Shown here one piece after another: positions 33,602 through 43,267 of a DNA stretch of 43,453 nucleotides. The notes beneath the pieces are model-generated. The model did no database searches and was not told where the DNA came from. It saw nothing but the letters and a program-made list of their open reading frames with translations. The stretch's first letter is position 1. The number at the start of each line of letters is the position of its first letter. Where the stretch lies: contig NZ_SPPC01000018.1 of assembly GCF_004570975.1 (NCBI RefSeq), positions 1-43,453 of the forward strand, given 5' to 3'. This DNA is from Barnesiella sp. WM24 (GTDB taxonomy: Bacteria > Bacteroidota > Bacteroidia > Bacteroidales > Muribaculaceae). The position numbers and the translations under genes were made by a program.

Positions 33602-35611
33602 ATGATTAATAAGATAAAAACCGCCGGCGTGGCCCTGCTCACAATGGCTACAAGCATCAATGCAATGGCTAAAGACAAAGACCAGTTCCAATATGTTACC
33701 GACCGCTTCGCTGACATCGAGGTGTTGAGATACAAAGTCCCCGACTTTGAAAATCTTTCTCTGCAGCAGAAACTCCTCATATACCATCTTACCGAAGCAG
33801 CGCTTGCCGGACGTGACATCCTCTGGGATCAGAACGGCAAAGACAATCTTGCCGTCCGCGACCTTATGGAAAACATTTATCTGAACTATAAGGGCGACAA
33901 AAACTCCGGTGAGTACAAGGAATTTGAGAAATATCTTAAACAGATCTGGTTTGCCAACGGTCTTCACCATCACTATTCGATGGACAAGTTCACGCCAGGA
34001 TTCAGCAAAGAGTTTCTGGTGTCACAGATCAATCTTCTCCCTCAGGAAAAGCGCCCTGCCAATCAGGAGACACTTCTCGCCCTTATCTTTGACCCTGCTG
34101 TCAAGCCCAAGAAAGTAAACCAGGCTGAAGGCGAAGACCTTATTCTCACCTCTGCGACAAATATATATGAAGGCGTTACCCAGCCTGAAGTAGAGGCTTA
34201 TTATGCAGCAATCAAAGACACTACCAACCTCACTCCGATATCTTACGGACTCAATACCCGAAAGATAAAAATCGACGGAAAAGTAGTGGAGCAGCCTTAC
34301 AAGGTAGGCGGACTCTACTCCGATGCCATCAAGCGCATTGTCAAAGAGCTCGGACTGGCTGCGGAATATGCTGAAAACCCGGCGCAGAAGGCTTATATCG
34401 ACAAACTTATCGAGTTTTACACCACCGGCGACCTGAAAACATTTGATGAATACTCGATATTGTGGTCGGAAGAAACCGACTCACAGGTCGACTTCATAAA
34501 TGGATTCATCGAGTCATATGACGACCCGCTGGGCATGACCGGCTCATGGGAGTCTATCGTCAATTTCAAAAACAAAGAAGCGTCGGCGCGCACCGAGACG
34601 TTAAGCGGCAACGCGCAGTGGTTTGAAAGCCACAGCCCCGTAAATCCCTCATTCCGTAAAGACGAGGTGAAAGGTGTCTCTGCAAAGGTAATCACCGCGG
34701 CGATACTTGCCGGTGACGCGTATCCCGCTACCCCTATCGGCATAAACCTGCCTAACGCCAACTGGATTCGTGCCGCCCACGGCTCAAAATCAGTTACGCT
34801 GGAAAATATCACCCAGGCTTACGACGAGGCATCCCACGGCGACGGATTCAACGAAGAGTTTGTAATCGACGAGCCTACACGTCAGCTGCTAAACGACTAT
34901 CTGTTTATCACAGATAATCTACACACCGACCTCCACGAGTGTCTCGGACACGCCTCCGGCCGCCTGCTGCCCGGTGTTGACCAGGATGCGTTGAAAGCCC
35001 ACGGCTCAACTCTTGAGGAGGCTCGTGCCGACCTGTTTGCGCTATACTATCTTGCCGACCCGAAGCTGCTTGAGCTCGGTCTGCTCGACAATCCCGATGC
35101 CTACAAGGCAGAATATTACAAATACATGCTCAACGGACTCATGACCCAGTTGATGCGCATAGAGCCGGGCAAAGATGTCGAAGAAGCCCACATGCGCAAC
35201 CGCAAGCTCATCGCAGAGTGGGCATATGAACACGGTAAAGCCGACAATGTAGTGGAATATGTGAAAAAAGATGGCAAGACATTCATCAAAATCAACGACT
35301 ATCGCAAACTTCGCGACCTCTTCGGTCAGCTGCTCGGAGAGATACAGCGCATCAAGAGCGAGGGCGATTACGAGGCAGGCCGTGACCTGGTGGAGAAATA
35401 TGCGGTAAAGGTTGACCCCGCAATCCACAAGGAGGTGCTCGACCGCTATTCTCATCTTGACATAGCTCCCTATAAGGGATTTGTAAACCCGGTCTACACT
35501 CTTGTAAAGGATGCCGACGGCAATGTGACCGACGTGACTGTCGATTACAGCGAGGATTATATCCCGCAGATGTTGCGATATTCCCGCGATTACTCCACCC
35601 TACCGAGATAA
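33602..35611 (+). CDS. Dipeptidyl peptidase III (M49)
   Basis: A 669-aa zinc exopeptidase removing dipeptides from the N-terminus of short peptides. The frame opens at 33572, inside the previous gene, but the ATG at 33602 gives a proper signal peptide (MINKIKTAGVALLTMATSINAMA), so I start there and infer export. The Bacteroides-type zinc motif HECLGH (445-450, shorter by one residue than the eukaryotic HELLGH-plus form) and EEARAD with the third ligand Glu473 are intact. These are close to the positions I recall for B. thetaiotaomicron DPP III. It is the last gene of the dxr run, followed by a terminator. Confidence 0.92.
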   Translation: MINKIKTAGVALLTMATSINAMAKDKDQFQYVTDRFADIEVLRYKVPDFENLSLQQKLLIYHLTEAALAGRDILWDQNGKDNLAVRDLMENIYLNYKGDKNSGEYKEFEKYLKQIWFANGLHHHYSMDKFTPGFSKEFLVSQINLLPQEKRPANQETLLALIFDPAVKPKKVNQAEGEDLILTSATNIYEGVTQPEVEAYYAAIKDTTNLTPISYGLNTRKIKIDGKVVEQPYKVGGLYSDAIKRIVKELGLAAEYAENPAQKAYIDKLIEFYTTGDLKTFDEYSILWSEETDSQVDFINGFIESYDDPLGMTGSWESIVNFKNKEASARTETLSGNAQWFESHSPVNPSFRKDEVKGVSAKVITAAILAGDAYPATPIGINLPNANWIRAAHGSKSVTLENITQAYDEASHGDGFNEEFVIDEPTRQLLNDYLFITDNLHTDLHECLGHASGRLLPGVDQDALKAHGSTLEEARADLFALYYLADPKLLELGLLDNPDAYKAEYYKYMLNGLMTQLMRIEPGKDVEEAHMRNRKLIAEWAYEHGKADNVVEYVKKDGKTFIKINDYRKLRDLFGQLLGEIQRIKSEGDYEAGRDLVEKYAVKVDPAIHKEVLDRYSHLDIAPYKGFVNPVYTLVKDADGNVTDVTVDYSEDYIPQMLRYSRDYSTLPR

Positions 35612-35647
35612 TCGCCACACCGAAATTCAGACCCCGACACACCCTAC

Positions 35648-35683
35648 AAATTACCCGGTTCATTACGAATCGGGTAATTTTGC
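35648..35683 (+). terminator. Terminator after the DPP III gene
   Basis: A 10-bp stem AAATTACCCG (35648-35657) with CGGGTAATTT (35671-35680), then TTG. This is also roughly where the sequence becomes more AT-rich. Confidence 0.7.
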
Positions 35684-35802
35684 ATTTGCCCGTTTAGAGC
35701 AGGATTTTGCCGGTCAAATCACTACTAATCATGTGTTTTATGGGCTGAAAAATTAGCTTAGATGAAATATTTTCATTAAACTTGCAACCAAAAATCATCA
35801 TA

Positions 35803-36030
35803 ATGTCTAAAATCAACAAGCTAAAGACCGTTCTGAACGAAAAGGGAGTGACAAGCAAATGGCTTGCCAACCAGTTGGAGGTGAATCCGACCACAGTCTC
35901 CAAATGGTGTACCAACTCTTCTCAGCCAGATATCCTTACCTTATTGAAAATCGCACATCTTCTTGATTTAGAGGTAATGAGCCTTTATGATGAAGAACTT
36001 GTACGACTATATCAGACCAATGTAGAATAA
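35803..36030 (+). CDS. Small XRE/Cro-C1-type DNA-binding protein
   Basis: 75 aa. A frame from a TTG at 35782 exists, but the ATG at 35803 (MSKINKLKTVLNEKGVTSKW) fits the usual XRE N-terminus. The helix-turn-helix is clear: GVTSKWLANQLEVNPTTVSKWCTNSSQPDILTLLKIAHLLDL. There is no extra effector domain. A 7/8 match to the -7 consensus (TAAACTTG, 35777-35784) precedes it. The TPR-HTH gene starts 10 bp after its stop, so the two form a regulatory operon. It is a candidate binder of the paired boxes near 38.0-38.5 kb (inference). Confidence 0.85.
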   Translation: MSKINKLKTVLNEKGVTSKWLANQLEVNPTTVSKWCTNSSQPDILTLLKIAHLLDLEVMSLYDEELVRLYQTNVE

Positions 36031-36040
36031 TGAACTTTTT

Positions 36041-37894
36041 ATGAGTAAACGCCCAATAAAATTTTATGTTTGTGTACTGCTGTTATCTATTATTATAACA
36101 GCGGTTGGTTGTGTCGGACACAGCGAAGTATGGGAAAAACTGGATGTGGTAGAACAACTTATGGAGACAAAACCAGATTCTGCCCTTGTGTTGCTGGACA
36201 GAGTCAAAGTTTCCGATTTTATCAGCAATGAGGAAGTTGCACGGTATGCCTTGCTCAAATCCATAGCTTTGGATAAAAATTATATTGACACGACAACATT
36301 TGACATCCTTCAACCAGCTATAGACTACTATCTAAAACACGGTTCCCCTGACGAAAAACTGAAGACCTACTACTATCAAGGTCGCATATACCAAAATCAG
36401 GGAGACAATGATTCAGCGATACAAAGTTTTATGCGCGGTAGAGAGTATTTTGGACAATCAGAAGATTCTATTACTATGGCAAACCTTATGGTAGCCAAAG
36501 CTACGATTCTATATACTACATATAAATTCGACGATTACATTCATGACAATCTTTACGCAGCCAAGTTGTATAGGGGTATTGGTAAAGATGGCTACGAAAT
36601 GTCATGCCTTGCCAATGTATTGGACGGAGGTATAATTACTAATAACAAACAACTCGCAGACAGCGTCCTATTTGTGGCTCAGCAGAGGGTCAGTGAAAAT
36701 GAGGAGTTGGGATCTTTATTTTCTCCATATCTTTTATCTTATGCAGTTAATTTCGGAGATAAAGATGATATAATTGAACTTCTTGATTATTGTAACTCAT
36801 TGGATTCTATTGACGATGCTGTTAAAATAGATATTGCAGAGGCATATTGTAAAATTGGAGATTCATATAACGCCAAACGTTTTATAGACTCAATAGATTC
36901 AGTTTCAGACTTGACAAAATCTCTGAAACTTTTGGCAATCAAGCCTGATATCCTTGAACTAAATGGTGATTTTGCAGGAGCTTTATCGGCCTACCGAGAC
37001 TTTTTAACTACTATAGACTCCATACACTTGAATATCTTTTCTCACGATTTGCTGTTTGCCAAAGAACGCCACGAGATGGAGAGATGCAATATGCAGAAGA
37101 TGCAAAAGAGAGATAAAATAATATGGCTGTGTCTCTGTATGGCTCTGGTGTTGCTTTGTATTACAGGATATATTTACTATCATTACAGATTGGGAAAAGC
37201 GAAAGGCTTATTGGATGATCAGGAGAAAAAAAGGTTGCGACTTGAGCAAGACAATCTCAAAAAGGAAAACGAGAATCTTGAACTGAGAAACCATCAGGCA
37301 GAACTGGAAAGGCAGAATCTTCAACAGGCTAATGAAAAGCTTGAGCTGGAAAGGCATAATGCAATTCTTGAAAAACAAGCGGCCGAATTGGATTGTGAGC
37401 GTCAATCATTGGTCGCAGAGAATCTTCATCTTAAAATTGAACAGTTGGAGGATGAGAGTGCTTCTCTTAAAGAGATTTTGGAGAAGCGAAAAGACCTTGC
37501 CAAACCAATAGCAGATGCAATCAAGATAAGGATGGAGATGCTGAACGGGTTATTAGCCACCAAGATTACAGAAAATGATTCATATGCTAAACCCTATGGG
37601 GCTTGGAGAGACCAACTCATTCAGGACAAAGATGAGTTTATGAATACTACTCGTCTTGCGTTCAAAGCTTCACATCCCAAATTTATAGAATATCTGGAAG
37701 CTCACGGACTGACTGAATCTGAAATCAACTATGTCTGTCTTTATGCCATTGGTCTTCGGGGAAAAGAAGCCGGTGAATATATGCAGTTGAAACGACATTA
37801 TCATATTAGTAGCGATGTTCGCAAGAAACTGGGTATTGACGAGCATCAGACCAATATTGGAATCTACATTCGAAAGCTGATGAAACAATTATAA
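36041..37894 (+). CDS. Membrane TPR / coiled-coil / HTH regulator
   Basis: 617 aa. The order visible is: signal or anchor with a lipobox-like end (TAVGC, Cys24), TPR-like helical repeats outside the cytoplasm (about 30-340, e.g. LKTYYYQGRIYQNQGDNDSAIQSFMRG), a transmembrane helix at about 360-382, a long charged coiled coil (about 385-490, Leu/Glu/Lys/Gln heptads), and a C-terminal LuxR-like HTH (LTESEINYVCLYAIGLRGKEAGEYM... VRKKLGID). This is a known Bacteroidetes one-protein transmembrane regulator design. The signal sensed is unknown. Base use is AT-richer than in the housekeeping genes to the left. Confidence 0.8.
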   Translation: MSKRPIKFYVCVLLLSIIITAVGCVGHSEVWEKLDVVEQLMETKPDSALVLLDRVKVSDFISNEEVARYALLKSIALDKNYIDTTTFDILQPAIDYYLKHGSPDEKLKTYYYQGRIYQNQGDNDSAIQSFMRGREYFGQSEDSITMANLMVAKATILYTTYKFDDYIHDNLYAAKLYRGIGKDGYEMSCLANVLDGGIITNNKQLADSVLFVAQQRVSENEELGSLFSPYLLSYAVNFGDKDDIIELLDYCNSLDSIDDAVKIDIAEAYCKIGDSYNAKRFIDSIDSVSDLTKSLKLLAIKPDILELNGDFAGALSAYRDFLTTIDSIHLNIFSHDLLFAKERHEMERCNMQKMQKRDKIIWLCLCMALVLLCITGYIYYHYRLGKAKGLLDDQEKKRLRLEQDNLKKENENLELRNHQAELERQNLQQANEKLELERHNAILEKQAAELDCERQSLVAENLHLKIEQLEDESASLKEILEKRKDLAKPIADAIKIRMEMLNGLLATKITENDSYAKPYGAWRDQLIQDKDEFMNTTRLAFKASHPKFIEYLEAHGLTESEINYVCLYAIGLRGKEAGEYMQLKRHYHISSDVRKKLGIDEHQTNIGIYIRKLMKQL

Positions 37895-37927
37895 ATCAGC
37901 TGGGCTTCCTTTTAACCCCATTCATTA

Positions 37928-37969
37928 AGACAGTCCATTGCCTTGTTAGGCAAATGGACTGTCTTTTTA
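37928..37969 (+). terminator. Terminator after the TPR-HTH regulator
   Basis: A 15-bp stem with one bulged A (37928-37942 with 37949-37964), followed by TTTTT. Confidence 0.8.
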
Positions 37970-38006
37970 TCTGTTTTCTTCATTTTGCCCCATTAAAATC
38001 CAGTGT

Positions 38007-38016
38007 GTCAAACTTT
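38007..38016 (+). promoter_or_regulatory. GTCAAACTTT box 1 (distal, module 1)
   Basis: GTCAAACTTT, 85 bp (start to start) upstream of the same box at 38092. No -7 box follows it at the spacing seen in the proximal boxes, so it looks like an upstream operator half of a pair. Confidence 0.6.
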
Positions 38017-38091
38017 GACCTTGACCACGCGGAAAGCCCATTTAAGACAATAGACATCTGCTTGTTATTTAGAGGGATACAGTAGGCTTGT

Positions 38092-38137
38092 GTCAAACTT
38101 TTATTCTTGAATGCAAATAACGGCCATTGTAATTTTG
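38092..38137 (+). promoter_or_regulatory. Promoter P1 with proximal GTCAAACTTT box
   Basis: GTCAAACTTTT at 38092, TTCTTG with TTG at 38107-38109, then 20 bp, then TAATTTTG at 38130-38137. The distance from box start to -7 start is 38 bp, identical in P2. The ATG of the small ORF lies 36 bp from the start of the -7 box. Confidence 0.7.
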
Positions 38138-38165
38138 TGTTTACTTATGAACAACAAATAACGTT

Positions 38166-38348
38166 ATGATGAATATTACTTCATTTTTCAGAAAAAACAC
38201 CTACATGATAAAATGTAAGGGCATATCTTATATCAGTTGGCGAACATTGCTTTTGCTTGTCTCATTTTTTACGGTTCTTTTGTTAGTGTGTTTTTCCCAA
38301 TATCCGGGTTCTAATGGGGAAAGCATACTCCAGCATATATTATTTTAG
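38166..38348 (+). CDS. Small membrane protein, hypothetical
   Basis: A 60-aa ORF starting MMNITSFFRKNTYMIKCKGI, with one strong transmembrane helix (TLLLLVSFFTVLLLVCFS, about residues 27-44) and a short polar tail. I do not recognise it. The reason for calling it is position: it begins at the same distance behind promoter P1 as the DUF3244 gene does behind P2. It may instead be a leader of an RNA or a decayed copy of a secreted-protein gene. Confidence 0.4.
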   Translation: MMNITSFFRKNTYMIKCKGISYISWRTLLLLVSFFTVLLLVCFSQYPGSNGESILQHILF

Positions 38349-38419
38349 AAGATTGGATAATGCAAAAGAATAATTACCAAGCTACGAAACCCAATGTATG
38401 TGGCTCATGGACTATTGCC

Positions 38420-38429
38420 GTCAAACTTT
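38420..38429 (+). promoter_or_regulatory. GTCAAACTTT box 3 (distal, module 2)
   Basis: GTCAAACTTT exactly 85 bp upstream of the box at 38505, repeating the spacing of the 38007/38092 pair although the sequence between the boxes is unrelated in the two modules. Confidence 0.6.
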
Positions 38430-38504
38430 TGGCTTCCCAAAGCAGAAAAGAAGCACCTCCATAGTTGTAATAAGTTAAATACTAATGTGTTAAAAATATC
38501 AACC

Positions 38505-38550
38505 GTCAAACTTTTCTTCTTGCATGAAAACTTTTTCAGCAGTAATTTTG
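38505..38550 (+). promoter_or_regulatory. Promoter P2 with proximal GTCAAACTTT box
   Basis: GTCAAACTTTT at 38505, TTG at 38520-38522, then 20 bp, then TAATTTTG at 38543-38550. This is the same geometry as P1. It drives the DUF3244 gene, whose ATG is 37 bp from the start of the -7 box. Confidence 0.7.
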
Positions 38551-38579
38551 CTATAGATAAACCAATAAAAAAGCACGAT

Positions 38580-38942
38580 ATGAAAAAGTATCTTCTTCTG
38601 ATTGGAGTCTTAATCTCCATTGCCATTCAGGCTACCGCTGCCAAAAGCGGGGTGTTCATGACCATTTACCGAAAAGGTCATGTAGATAAAAACACAACTG
38701 TCCATCGTTCTCCGATGCGACTCCCAATTGATGTTTTCTACGACAATGTGGCACGACAGATAGAAGTTGCCGGTAATGAGGATATGATTGCACAAATATA
38801 CCTCTGTGATGAAAACGGTAATACATTAGACTACTCTCCATGTGTCAATGTGGTGTTGGATATTCCGAGTAACTATAATGGACTAATCATAATACGCATC
38901 GATGGTGCGGATTGGGTAGCTACGGGAAAAATCATTGACTGA
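38580..38942 (+). CDS. DUF3244 family secreted protein
   Basis: 120 aa from the ATG at 38580. The frame is open upstream to 38394, but that part overlaps promoter P2 and lacks protein-like features. The signal peptide is MKKYLLLIGVLISIAIQATA. The remainder is a single small beta-sandwich: RSPMRLPIDVFYDNVARQIEV, then AQIYLCDENGNTLDYSPCVNVVLDIP and GLIIIRIDGADWVATGKI. DUF3244 proteins are small secreted Ig-like proteins common in Bacteroidales, often near secreted proteases, with unproven function. The next gene is 107 bp away without a clear promoter, so readthrough is possible. Confidence 0.8.
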   Translation: MKKYLLLIGVLISIAIQATAAKSGVFMTIYRKGHVDKNTTVHRSPMRLPIDVFYDNVARQIEVAGNEDMIAQIYLCDENGNTLDYSPCVNVVLDIPSNYNGLIIIRIDGADWVATGKIID

Positions 38943-39049
38943 TACCTCTATGACGAATGAATACACCATCATTTGCCGCGCATAGAAGGAATGATTGTAA
39001 GTGTGTATTTTGAGAATAAACCATAATAATAACCTTAAACACAAACACA

Positions 39050-40729
39050 ATGAGAAAGAAATGCCTACTCATGATTGCTGCCGGCATAGTGCTTGCAACA
39101 GCGAATGTGCCGACAACTGCGGCGCAAGAAGTTGCGGGAATCGAAATCTCTCCAACATCAGTCCTCCCCATAACGGGAGTATCCGAATCTACGGATGGCA
39201 ACTACAACTTCAAGAGTTTCGAGGTCGAGGCTTCCGAGGCGGGTTCGTACTACACGGAATTCTGGCTTCTGCCATCCAAGTATGCCAACAACAGCTATTC
39301 GTCGTTTATGATTTACGTGAACGACAATTACATCGGCTCCATAACTCCAACTGTCGGCAACTGGCAGGCAGTACGTGTTGATGGACATGAGACCTTCGAT
39401 ATGACAGAAGGTACAAATGTAATCACCATCGCAACTCTGGCGCCTGAGTTTCCAGAAGTCGAGACTCTCAAAGTGTCCTTGAATGATGCTGATGCAACAT
39501 TCTCCTCAGAGGCCTACGAAGAATATCTTGATGACGCTGCTGCTGGTGTCACTTATGATATTCCAGAAGATGATGGTATGACGGTGTATGCAAGTGATGC
39601 AACGGGAGTGGGACCGGCGCATTTTTCAAATGTACCTCTGAACTATACATTCTACAAGACCTTCAGCTTCACAAAGGGACAGGAAATCTTCATCACTTCC
39701 TCAAGTTCAGCCGCACACAAGATTGATGTAGTATATTACGGCTCTGAGCCTAAAAGTTCTGGACTCATTGGTCCGACCAATCCGATTATTACGCCGATTA
39801 ATTCTGGCATTCTTAATCCTGGCGTTATCAATCTGACAAGTTTGAATCCATTGGCTGAGAGTTCTGTTATAATTCGACCATATGTAAAATTTCGAGTTCT
39901 ATATACTCCGGCCACTTCTGAGGAAATGCAGGGATTGAGTTGGGTCTTTCCTTCTCAGAAAACCCTGAATTCATCAATGCAGGTAGCTACTGCAAAAATG
40001 AGAATTACTAAATCCGGTCAATATCTTGTACGAGTACGTCATGCTGTAAATGGTGGCTCCGCTTTGGCTGATGTCAATGTAAACGGTGCGTACTATTATG
40101 AAAACACACCTATAACCTTGTCATATAAATCATGTGTTATTCCGGCCGATGGTAATTATTACGCTACATTTACTTGCTGCAATAACTTCGGTACAGATGA
40201 TCCGTACCTGTTCATCCACGGAGCTGATGTCGATAAAATCGTAGGCTTCAATGACGATGCGCCAAGTGCACAAAGAGAACAATACAATCTGTCTACATGG
40301 GATTCCTACATTTCTCAGAAGTACTTCATGAAGACATCCGGCATAAGTGTCAGCAACTACAGTTCATCAAAGCCTACTTCACGCTGTAATATAGTAGCCC
40401 GAATATCAGAGGGGGCTGCGCAGTCCGTGGCTAAGGCAAGAGCCAAAGCCGCTAATACTGCCGGTGTAACTGAGATGTCAATCACAGACGAATCTGTACA
40501 GATTGCCGTCCCTGCGAATATAAATGACTCGTTCTCAATCAATACGACTGAGATTATTCATAAAGTTTCGATATATGGATTGGCAGGTAATCGCATTGGT
40601 TCTGTCAACTGTAATGAATCCTGTGCGATTATACCGACATCCTCCCTTAATATAAATCATCCGGGAATCTATGTCATAAGCGTTGAGACATCAAATGGTG
40701 TAATATCAAAGAAAGTAGCTATTAAATAA
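39050..40729 (+). CDS. Secreted protein with type IX secretion sorting domain
   Basis: 559 aa with a signal peptide (MRKKCLLMIAAGIVLATANVPTTAAQ). It has beta-rich, Ser/Thr/Asn-rich repeats of about 120 residues: two segments resemble each other in carrying a Y-x-x-x-x-F/V-V-N-D/G-x-Y pattern (FMIYVNDNYIGSI near 84, and ADVNVNGAYYYEN near 345). The C-terminal ~70 residues form a type A sorting domain (HKVSIYGLAGNRIGSV... NHPGIYVISVETSNGVISKKVAIK). I do not recognise the main domain. It is likely cell-surface or released through the type IX system. It is followed by another sorting-domain protein and a subtilisin. Confidence 0.75.
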   Translation: MRKKCLLMIAAGIVLATANVPTTAAQEVAGIEISPTSVLPITGVSESTDGNYNFKSFEVEASEAGSYYTEFWLLPSKYANNSYSSFMIYVNDNYIGSITPTVGNWQAVRVDGHETFDMTEGTNVITIATLAPEFPEVETLKVSLNDADATFSSEAYEEYLDDAAAGVTYDIPEDDGMTVYASDATGVGPAHFSNVPLNYTFYKTFSFTKGQEIFITSSSSAAHKIDVVYYGSEPKSSGLIGPTNPIITPINSGILNPGVINLTSLNPLAESSVIIRPYVKFRVLYTPATSEEMQGLSWVFPSQKTLNSSMQVATAKMRITKSGQYLVRVRHAVNGGSALADVNVNGAYYYENTPITLSYKSCVIPADGNYYATFTCCNNFGTDDPYLFIHGADVDKIVGFNDDAPSAQREQYNLSTWDSYISQKYFMKTSGISVSNYSSSKPTSRCNIVARISEGAAQSVAKARAKAANTAGVTEMSITDESVQIAVPANINDSFSINTTEIIHKVSIYGLAGNRIGSVNCNESCAIIPTSSLNINHPGIYVISVETSNGVISKKVAIK

Positions 40730-41767: not shown

Positions 41768-43267
41768 ATGAAGAAGTTCATCACTTTCATGGTAGCAGCA
41801 TTCTGTCTGTCGTTATCAATCTCTGCACAGGATAGTTTCTACTACTATCATGGCACAAAAATGCCGTTGAGCGAGGATGCGACCAAGATTGTATCGATTG
41901 CTCCAAAAACAGAAAATGTATCCCTCTCTCAGTCAAACGGGTTCACGCTTGTCAAAACAATTTCGGACACACGCAGTCTTATCAAGGTGTATGAACTGTC
42001 TTCATCCACCACAATCAAGCGTGCCATTGCAACAAATCCATCTGCATCGGTAAACATTCTGCCCTGTTATAAGTCAGTAAGCGGGAATGAACTTATCCCC
42101 AACGGGTACATCAATGTAAAGCTTAAATCAGCTACAGATTATTCAAATCTTCAGACTATAGCGCAACAGAATGGCTGCGAAATCATAGAGCAGAACCCCT
42201 TTATGCCCTTATGGTATAATCTGCGGGTTAAGAATGCTCCCGGACATAATTCGGTTGAAATCGCCAATGCGATATACGAAACAGGAAAATTCGCCTCAGC
42301 ATTTCCAAGCTTTACGTTTGACGCTCTTGAAATCTCCTACGACCCAAACGTATACGAACAATGGGGATTGTATAATTCCCAATACGAAGATCTGGATATT
42401 TCATTAAGTCAGGCGTGGAGTTACGCCACAGGAAGAGGAATAAAGGTCGCTGTCATCGATCAGGGAATCGACTTGAATCATCAGGATCTGCGTGACAATA
42501 TCTACCCACTGAGTTACGACACAGAGACAAAAACATCTCCCAGCAAATTATATGACTATCATGGAACCCATTGTGCAGGTATTATAGCTGCTGTAAGAAA
42601 CAATGGAATTCAAGTTGCCGGTGTCGCGCCGGATGCTAAACTCATGTCTGTCAGCAATAGCTTATCTTTGACCTCTAATTTGGAATCCAATCTGGCAAAT
42701 GGAATTAATTGGGCATGGGAAAACAGTGCGGATGTCATTTCCTGCTCATGGTGGTGTGAAAAGAACGAATTGTTGGAAGAAGCAATTGATAACGCAGTTA
42801 CAAAAGGACGTGAAGGCAAGGGCTGTGTATTCGTTAAGTCTGCTGGCAATTATACAAGATTACATCCAACCTATGATATATCTTACCCTGGAGATTATAG
42901 TCCTGATGTTATCGCTGTATCCAATATGACTGAGAATGGAAGTCTTTCAACTACTTCTTGTTATGGTCCAAATCTACTTGTCGCCGCACCGGGTACTAAT
43001 ATATTATCTACATTGCCTGATAATAAAATCGGGAAACTTAGTGGAACTTCCATGGCATGTCCTCACGTTGCAGGATTAGCTGCATTGATTCTTGAACGGA
43101 ACCCATCACTGACGGCAAAGAAAGTCCGTGAGATTATTGCTAAGAATACGAAAAAGGTCGGCAGTATTCCTTACAGCACCAATAAAATTTATGGAACATG
43201 GAATATTAAATATGGCTATGGCCTTATTGATGCCTATAAAGCTGTCATCAATACCCCCCGTAACTAA
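41768..43267 (+). CDS. S8 family serine peptidase (subtilisin-like), secreted
   Basis: 499 aa with a signal peptide (MKKFITFMVAAFCLSLSISAQ), an N-terminal propeptide region (about 22-200, including NGYINVKLKSATDYSNLQ and ENPFMPLWYNLRV), and a complete subtilase domain. The catalytic triad is Asp231 (VAVIDQGIDL), His265 (YHGTHCAG) and Ser428 (LSGTSMACPHVAG), with the oxyanion Asn in VKSAGNYT. The protein ends soon after GYGLIDAYKAV, without the sorting domain carried by its two upstream neighbours. It is the last gene of the accessory operon. Confidence 0.92.
   Translation: MKKFITFMVAAFCLSLSISAQDSFYYYHGTKMPLSEDATKIVSIAPKTENVSLSQSNGFTLVKTISDTRSLIKVYELSSSTTIKRAIATNPSASVNILPCYKSVSGNELIPNGYINVKLKSATDYSNLQTIAQQNGCEIIEQNPFMPLWYNLRVKNAPGHNSVEIANAIYETGKFASAFPSFTFDALEISYDPNVYEQWGLYNSQYEDLDISLSQAWSYATGRGIKVAVIDQGIDLNHQDLRDNIYPLSYDTETKTSPSKLYDYHGTHCAGIIAAVRNNGIQVAGVAPDAKLMSVSNSLSLTSNLESNLANGINWAWENSADVISCSWWCEKNELLEEAIDNAVTKGREGKGCVFVKSAGNYTRLHPTYDISYPGDYSPDVIAVSNMTENGSLSTTSCYGPNLLVAAPGTNILSTLPDNKIGKLSGTSMACPHVAGLAALILERNPSLTAKKVREIIAKNTKKVGSIPYSTNKIYGTWNIKYGYGLIDAYKAVINTPRN

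Follow-up and report, generated by a model that had tools for sequence, protein, structure and literature searches.

Box pairs at whole-turn spacings behind a predicted membrane-tethered TPR regulator gene in Bacteroidales

AraC, LacI and lambda CI are soluble regulators with helically phased operators and act by DNA looping. In the membrane-anchored regulator CadC, the periplasmic sensor is C-terminal. An excerpt of one CadC study describes an N-terminal winged helix, two operator sites (Cad1 and Cad2) upstream of the target promoter and a membrane-anchored dimer that is thought to raise the affinity for DNA (PMC5430869). The locus described here would resemble CadC and ToxR in that a putative sensor and a candidate DNA-binding domain lie in one chain with a single predicted transmembrane helix and that two putative operators are involved. 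Compared with CadC, however, the order of the parts is reversed (a lipobox comes first, followed by the TPR sensor, a coiled-coil-like stretch and, at the C terminus, a LuxR-like domain), and paralogues own separate pairs at whole-turn spacings. CadC is the nearest working model, with a ToxR/CadC-like logic realised in a different protein family. Like the targets of AraC, LacI and lambda CI, the locus has a pair of sites that are whole turns apart and so share a face of the DNA; its regulator, in contrast to these soluble proteins, is predicted to sit in the membrane, and paralogues differ in spacing class. Likeness to the Bacteroidota TPR-type regulators (DUF6377 and BT3442 family neighbours) consists in TPR models that match up to 13 of 19 paralogues. 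For the operators of these TPR regulators, no description was found in the open-licence literature among the matches listed; in an excerpt of PMC10352776, two RiPP clusters are said to contain TPR genes that might be regulators, and operators are not named. The box pairs, which related regulators have in other spellings and likewise at whole-turn spacings, suggest an undescribed wiring of a cell-surface sensor to its operon. If the box of each regulator can be read, sequence by itself would connect the sensor with its operon, and class-specific turn numbers would offer a route to how a membrane-held protein reads DNA.

The window, meaning the whole analysed stretch of 43,453 nucleotides from a gut bacterium, contains two promoter modules, P1 and P2, behind a regulator gene (Table 1). 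The reading preferred here, with a probability of roughly 70%, is that the adjacent, predicted membrane-tethered regulator binds both boxes of a module on one DNA face and controls P1 as well as P2. It draws on the anatomy of the modules, their conservation, the whole-turn spacing and the covariation of box and regulator.

Table 1. Coordinates of the regulator locus and its two promoter modules within the window
Feature	Position	Strand	Remark
XRE-type HTH protein, 75 aa, directly upstream of the regulator	35803..36030	+	HTH_3, E=2.7e-7
Regulator, 617 aa (P0001)	36041..37894	+	Candidate binder of the boxes; modules P1/P2 directly downstream
Probable regulator-gene terminator	37927..37965	+	Perfect 13-bp inverted repeat, then T run
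Module P1 distal box GTCAAACTTT	38007..38016	+	Weak second half at about 38029-38035
Module P1 proximal box GTCAAACTTT	38092..38101	+	Weak second half at about 38112-38118
P1 core promoter	38107..38137	+	TTG 38107-38109, 20-bp spacer, TAATTTTG 38130-38137
Single-TM peptide, 60 aa, putative P1 product	38166..38348	+	
Module P2 distal box GTCAAACTTT	38420..38429	+	Weak second half at about 38442-38448
Module P2 proximal box GTCAAACTTT	38505..38514	+	Second half TGAAAACTTT at 38525-38534
P2 core promoter	38520..38550	+	TTG 38520-38522, 20-bp spacer, TAATTTTG 38543-38550
120-aa protein, signal-peptide-like start, first gene after P2	38580..38942	+	
Secreted protein, 559 aa	39050..40729	+	Type A T9SS sorting tail
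Secreted protein, 335 aa	40752..41759	+	T9SS-like tail (at the model's cut-off)
S8 (subtilase) peptidase	41768..43267	+	

The preliminary description of this DNA had placed four exact copies of GTCAAACTTT at 38007, 38092, 38420 and 38505, and all four coordinates are correct, with the copies on the plus strand. A fifth exact copy is absent from the window, for which 0.14 copies are expected, and at least four copies were reached in none of 100 shuffles. It had also described a distance of 38 bp from the start of the proximal box to TAATTTTG in both modules, with TTG and a 20-bp spacer between, and this arrangement was confirmed. TTG, spacer and TAATTTTG of P1 together form what we take to be a Bacteroidetes promoter of the -33/-7 type. 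The claimed distance of exactly 85 bp between the boxes holds for both pairs in the window but not for orthologues and near relatives, which range from 83 to 88 bp. Likeness between P1 and P2 exceeds the 10-bp box, covering 26 nt at 88% around the proximal copies and 29 nt at 72% at the distal ones. An RNA element at the modules is disfavoured, as no Rfam family reached its gathering score in 35500-39200.

The regulator starts with a lipobox-like signal (AVGC) whose cysteine, Cys24, is invariant across 19 aligned paralogues; the lipobox pattern is present in 15 of them. Hydropathy predicts a single central transmembrane helix at about residues 360-378, and a central transmembrane helix was also found in 19/19 paralogues. 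TPR repeats are indicated by TPR_12 and TPR_2, each of which matches 13/19 paralogues at E<=0.1, while the TPR-type matches of the window's regulator itself are weak and under the cut-offs (SNAP, 4.1e-5; TPR_6, 0.0083). DUF6377 matches three of the 19 paralogues at E<=0.1, and the match of the window's regulator to NF053779 (BT3442_fam) is partial, with 62 bits against a cut-off of 940. A long charged stretch looks coiled-coil-like by eye, and a C-terminal HTH-like domain of LuxR-type appearance spans residues 480-617 approximately. For this domain, the GerE profile gave a weak match in one of 19 paralogues (E=0.0063), and a comparison of the window regulator's domain with PDB sequences gave no match. 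An OmpR/PhoB-type winged helix is absent from the full Pfam list of the window's regulator; for 18 paralogues, 25 of 64 families are covered. The regulator's reading frame is broken in one orthologue locus (L047, 6001-7817) and split into two open reading frames in another relative (L273, 751-2598).

Box pairs were searched in the window's own genome (3.49 Mb) and in a family sample of 287 genomes, with start-to-start spacings of 39-131 bp scanned. Single GTCAAACTTT sites are not rare in the own genome, with 10 against 14 for a reversed-pattern control. Pairs at gaps of 65-85 bp numbered two against none for the control; no own-genome pair at start-to-start distances of 39-131 bp was found beyond the two in the window, and the box-to-TAnnTTTG arrangement occurs in this genome solely at this locus. 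Since single sites stay at control level and pairs are confined to this locus, local control rather than a wide regulon is indicated. A genome search had been proposed earlier as a test of phased binding, with boxes at random spacings as the outcome that would speak against it, and it found 7 of the 9 exact pairs outside arrays at 84-86 bp. These seven, from five of the 287 genomes (G000 and G427 twice each, G423, G457 and G487 once), all stand behind a regulator gene of the same family as the one in the window. Two isolated exact pairs lie elsewhere, one at 69 bp that runs antisense within a long open reading frame (G406:C20) and one at 67 bp (G624:C89), and no regulator was found in the 2-2.5 kb examined around either. 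The reversed-pattern control gave a single match over the family genomes (in G461). Excluded from the pair count were the repeat arrays of G516:C24 (27-bp repeats) and G427:C18 (20-bp repeats), as well as two 69-bp pairs of G065:C66, both inside one 468-codon open frame.

Orthologues of the regulator were found on 10 genome contigs, with labels that include Prevotella, Palleniella, Parabacteroides and Muribaculaceae, and boxes lie behind the regulator in all 10 of these loci. The C-terminal domain of seven relatives is 61-91% identical to that of the window's regulator. P2-type promoters of the orthologues carry pairs at 84-88 bp. Their P1 promoters are more varied: two (L041 and L042) keep 85 bp and are without a strict TAnnTTTG, three (L039, L044 and L047) have an altered distal box, GTCAAACTGG, at 80 bp, and the distal box of another two (L040 and L048) is likewise altered. 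The step from the proximal box to TAnnTTTG, counted if this motif lay 30-45 bp beyond the box, is 37 or 38 bp in every pair of orthologues and near relatives that has the motif. The earlier proposal, in which phased binding is under selection and recent duplication does not suffice, is supported by relatives with diverged filler, which keep the pair, the spacing of about eight turns and the 37-38 bp step, and also by paralogues, which have other box sequences and other whole-turn spacings. By its sequence the arrangement is that of a phased operator pair, in which two similar sites stay whole turns apart among relatives.

Between the P2 boxes of seven orthologue loci (L039, L040, L041, L042, L044, L047 and L048) lies a poly-C tract of 5-9, and the P2 box spacing follows the length of the tract over a range of 84 to 87 bp, closely similar loci included; the tract is possibly a slippage switch. 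Pieces of a group II intron (Rfam RF02001 and RF01998) lie between P1 and P2 in L042 (3069-3352); L041 resembles this intron sequence by eye and L043 is without most of it.

The regulator family is common: of 118 genomes sampled from the taxonomic family, 95 have a member at E<=1e-30, and the window's genome has eight. Paralogues show direct repeats of other sequence at the same place downstream, and these were scored by matching the sequence immediately ahead of the core promoter against DNA lying a further 30-110 bp upstream. The best-scoring matches, with the window and L039-L048 excluded, formed a discovery set (99 loci, 64 anchored, 63 after dereplication, 34 with a repeat at p<=0.05) and a validation set (80 loci, 55 anchored, 18 with a repeat at p<=0.05); a usable TAnnTTTG anchor is missing in 60 of these 179 loci. 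Left out of the validation set were G482:C79, G458:C20, G482:C70 and G471:C145, which have no usable downstream DNA, as well as G340:C26 and matches that stopped short of profile position 520 or so. The -60..-28 window, the 30-110 bp range and the 10.5-bp period were fixed after the discovery set and before the validation loci; the anchor rule, the scoring, the 75% dereplication and the p cut-offs were not fixed in advance of validation.

Among the loci at p<=0.05, spacings cluster at 41-43, 52-54, 63-67, 74-75, 83-86 and 95-96 bp, whereas 70 and 109 bp clearly do not fit. A first periodicity run, made with a -62..-28 window, gave a Rayleigh R at 10.5 bp of 0.74 for discovery (n=34) and 0.78 for validation (n=18), against 0.55 and 0.59, respectively, in the best of 100 shuffled sets, for which any period from 9.5 to 12 was allowed. 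The run was repeated with -60..-28 and without L184, a validation locus apparently on the same contig as the earlier L045, and R at 10.5 bp was 0.70 for the 34 discovery loci and 0.78 for the 21 validation loci, against 0.49 and 0.55, respectively, in the best of 200 shuffled sets. Without the 61-68 bp cluster, R was 0.71 (n=19) in discovery and 0.79 (n=9, p=0.0017 versus uniform spacings) in validation. At looser cut-offs, with the 64-bp cluster removed, the periodicity of the validation set fades, from R=0.49 at p<=0.1 (n=13, p=0.04) to R=0.33 at p<=0.2 (n=15, p=0.20). If the period is taken as 10.6, a value chosen post hoc, 44 of 52 spacings deviate from a whole multiple by no more than 1.5 bp, as compared with 34 of 52 at 10.5.

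Box and regulator vary together. In 70 loci (p<=0.1), Mantel tests of the last 35 or so regulator residues against promoter windows gave r=0.233 for the proximal and r=0.216 for the distal box window (p=0.0003), compared with r=0.04-0.09 for four filler windows between the copies, three of them nominally significant. The core promoter (r=0.158, p=0.0003) and the 5' leader (r=0.07, p=0.008) also covary with the tail, as does the filler, so part of the box signal reflects shared descent. Tail similarity likewise correlates with having the same spacing (Mantel r=0.245), which is inherited within clades.

Two tail classes were tallied, again without the window and L039-L048. RHYHISSD-type tails (class A, for example with the box GTCAAACTTT at 85 bp) go with AAACTT-type pairs at 83-86 bp in 11 of 18 loci (scan 30-110 bp); two of these 11 give 63 bp too, via an inner copy, and seven class A loci are without a pair, a class in which two loci have <200 bp of DNA and in which the pattern missed L124 and L132, both with 83-bp pairs. 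SHVNISSA-type tails (class B, for example with the box ATGAAAGTTT at 95 bp) go with TGAAA[CG]T pairs at 94-97 bp, one turn more than class A, in 15 of 21 loci (scan 80-100 bp). Two of these 15 also have an 85-bp pair, one further class B locus has solely an 85-bp pair, and five have none. The consensus of 21 class A sites shows a second half about 20-22 bp after each box. At the distal sites of L099, L120 and L124 it repeats the box in full, in L132, L174, L190 and L192 it does so nearly, and elsewhere it is weak or absent. In class B, the proximal boxes of L094, L162, L170, L175 and L183 are followed about 21 bp on by an extra TGAAA[GC]T near TAnnTTTG. One class B regulator (L153) has its own 95-bp pair and, 1016 and 1101 bp past its stop, a class A pair (85 bp); the contig also carries, some 20 kb off, a class A-type regulator (L188) that possibly acts on that pair at a distance. 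Within the group A1, the stretch after the transmembrane helix measures 188-189 aa in the 74-bp regulators L062 and L065, 169-171 aa in the 64-bp regulators L050, L057 and L061, and 183 aa in L051 (64 bp), so that in these few members linker length may be related to box spacing.

Several other explanations were weighed against the preferred reading. That the periodicity merely mirrors the 10-11 bp period which A/T-rich DNA of bacteria shows in general would fit with a control of 61 other TAnnTTTG promoters from the same DNA, of which 13 had a repeat at p<=0.05 (8 at p<=0.01) and 6 of these 13 lay near multiples of 10.6; control promoters are richer in repeats than shuffles, which makes the shuffles a lenient null. 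However, R of the control was 0.35 (n=13), against 0.74 and 0.78, none of the 13 lay at 63-66 bp, at least one control match (L162, 95 bp) is itself a second module behind a regulator, and related tails share repeat words bearing G/C, which together make this explanation very improbable. Neutral duplication, in which modules and pairs are recent copies that inherited their spacing without function, accounts for the shared stretches of 26-29 nt in P1 and P2 and for the inheritance of spacing within clades. It is equally hard to credit, since the boxes persist where the filler has changed, as seen in records labelled Prevotella, Palleniella, Parabacteroides and Muribaculaceae and unlike box sequences land on the same whole-turn series.

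Binding of the boxes by another protein, with the TPR regulator a mere neighbour, is quite unlikely. The preliminary description had named both the 75-aa XRE protein and the C-terminal HTH of the TPR regulator as possible binders, and the regulator fits as a candidate. The XRE gene lies directly upstream of it, and a 59% identical copy precedes the regulator in L273, but the XRE protein is not kept along with the boxes, as a good match lies near only one of the 27 regulator loci searched, a few of which have little upstream DNA. A global factor does not fit either, as the boxes change with the regulator tail. More serious, though still unlikely, is the possibility that the regulator is a repressor that holds a loop over the promoter and releases it on signal. 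Whole-turn operator pairs are typical of looping repressors, and the second half TGAAAACTTT sits within the -33/-7 spacer in P2 and several relatives; in the 64-75 bp classes, however, about 50 bp separate the start of the proximal copy from TAnnTTTG, which puts that copy upstream of -33, a usual location of sites for activators.

For the preferred reading, binding of both boxes by the adjacent regulator, we infer a mechanism that includes the binding protein, its dimers, their bridging, the signal, activation over repression and the transcription start. Each module would be a regulated promoter with two operators for the regulator encoded directly upstream. An operator would consist of the box GTCAAACTTT and a weaker half about two turns on, so that each operator probably takes a dimer. 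The proximal operator would abut the -33 element, and the distal one would sit on the same side of the DNA, eight turns of the helix further up. The TPR domain may sense a periplasmic signal and pass it through the single transmembrane helix to the cytoplasmic DNA-binding domains. Because these domains would hang from the membrane, dimers could join both operators only if these face the same way, hence the whole-turn spacing. The most likely role of the complex is to activate RNA polymerase at both promoters, P1 in front of the 60-aa membrane peptide and P2 in front of the secreted protein, the T9SS proteins and the S8 peptidase; repression is less likely, given a proximal operator at or upstream of -33. 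A broader and tentative proposal, to which we give somewhat less than even odds, is that membrane-tethered TPR regulators of Bacteroidales use an own box word and turn number (4 to 9) for each class, with the promoter docked flat on the membrane, and that in some orthologues slippage of the poly-C tract shifts the phase of the operators and might turn the operon on or off.

The genes behind the boxes differ between loci. In 42 of 80 paralogue loci, the first open reading frame behind the regulator has 115-135 aa, mostly with a signal-peptide-like start by eye, and a few of these are weakly DUF3244-like. A C39 exporter together with a radical SAM enzyme occurs at several regulator loci, in operons for peptide export. 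The operon that follows the pair in L273 (G427:C58) contains a C39 peptidase/ABC exporter, a radical SAM protein and, by eye and with no Pfam match, a GG-leader-like peptide, and the operon of L272 is similar; peptide export is therefore a likely theme, whereas the window has a protease operon instead.

The putative P1 product, for which no Pfam or NCBIfam match was found, belongs to an unnamed family of small membrane proteins that usually adjoin C39 peptidase/ABC exporter genes. Members have 60-98 aa and the pattern LRSEKVR...GEIPP.LVRWG...LPYPYSNGESILxH (window 38166-38348; L054 10689-10886; L227-L255), and presumably resemble a stand-alone HlyD N-terminus. At E<=0.05, 68 of 358 genomes match, with several weaker matches inside frames of 400-700 aa. 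A pattern test found a C39-exporter-type tail upstream of the small protein in 26 of 29 loci, and the neighbouring exporters are named by Pfam in L272-L274. The copy in the window sits under its own box-pair promoter.
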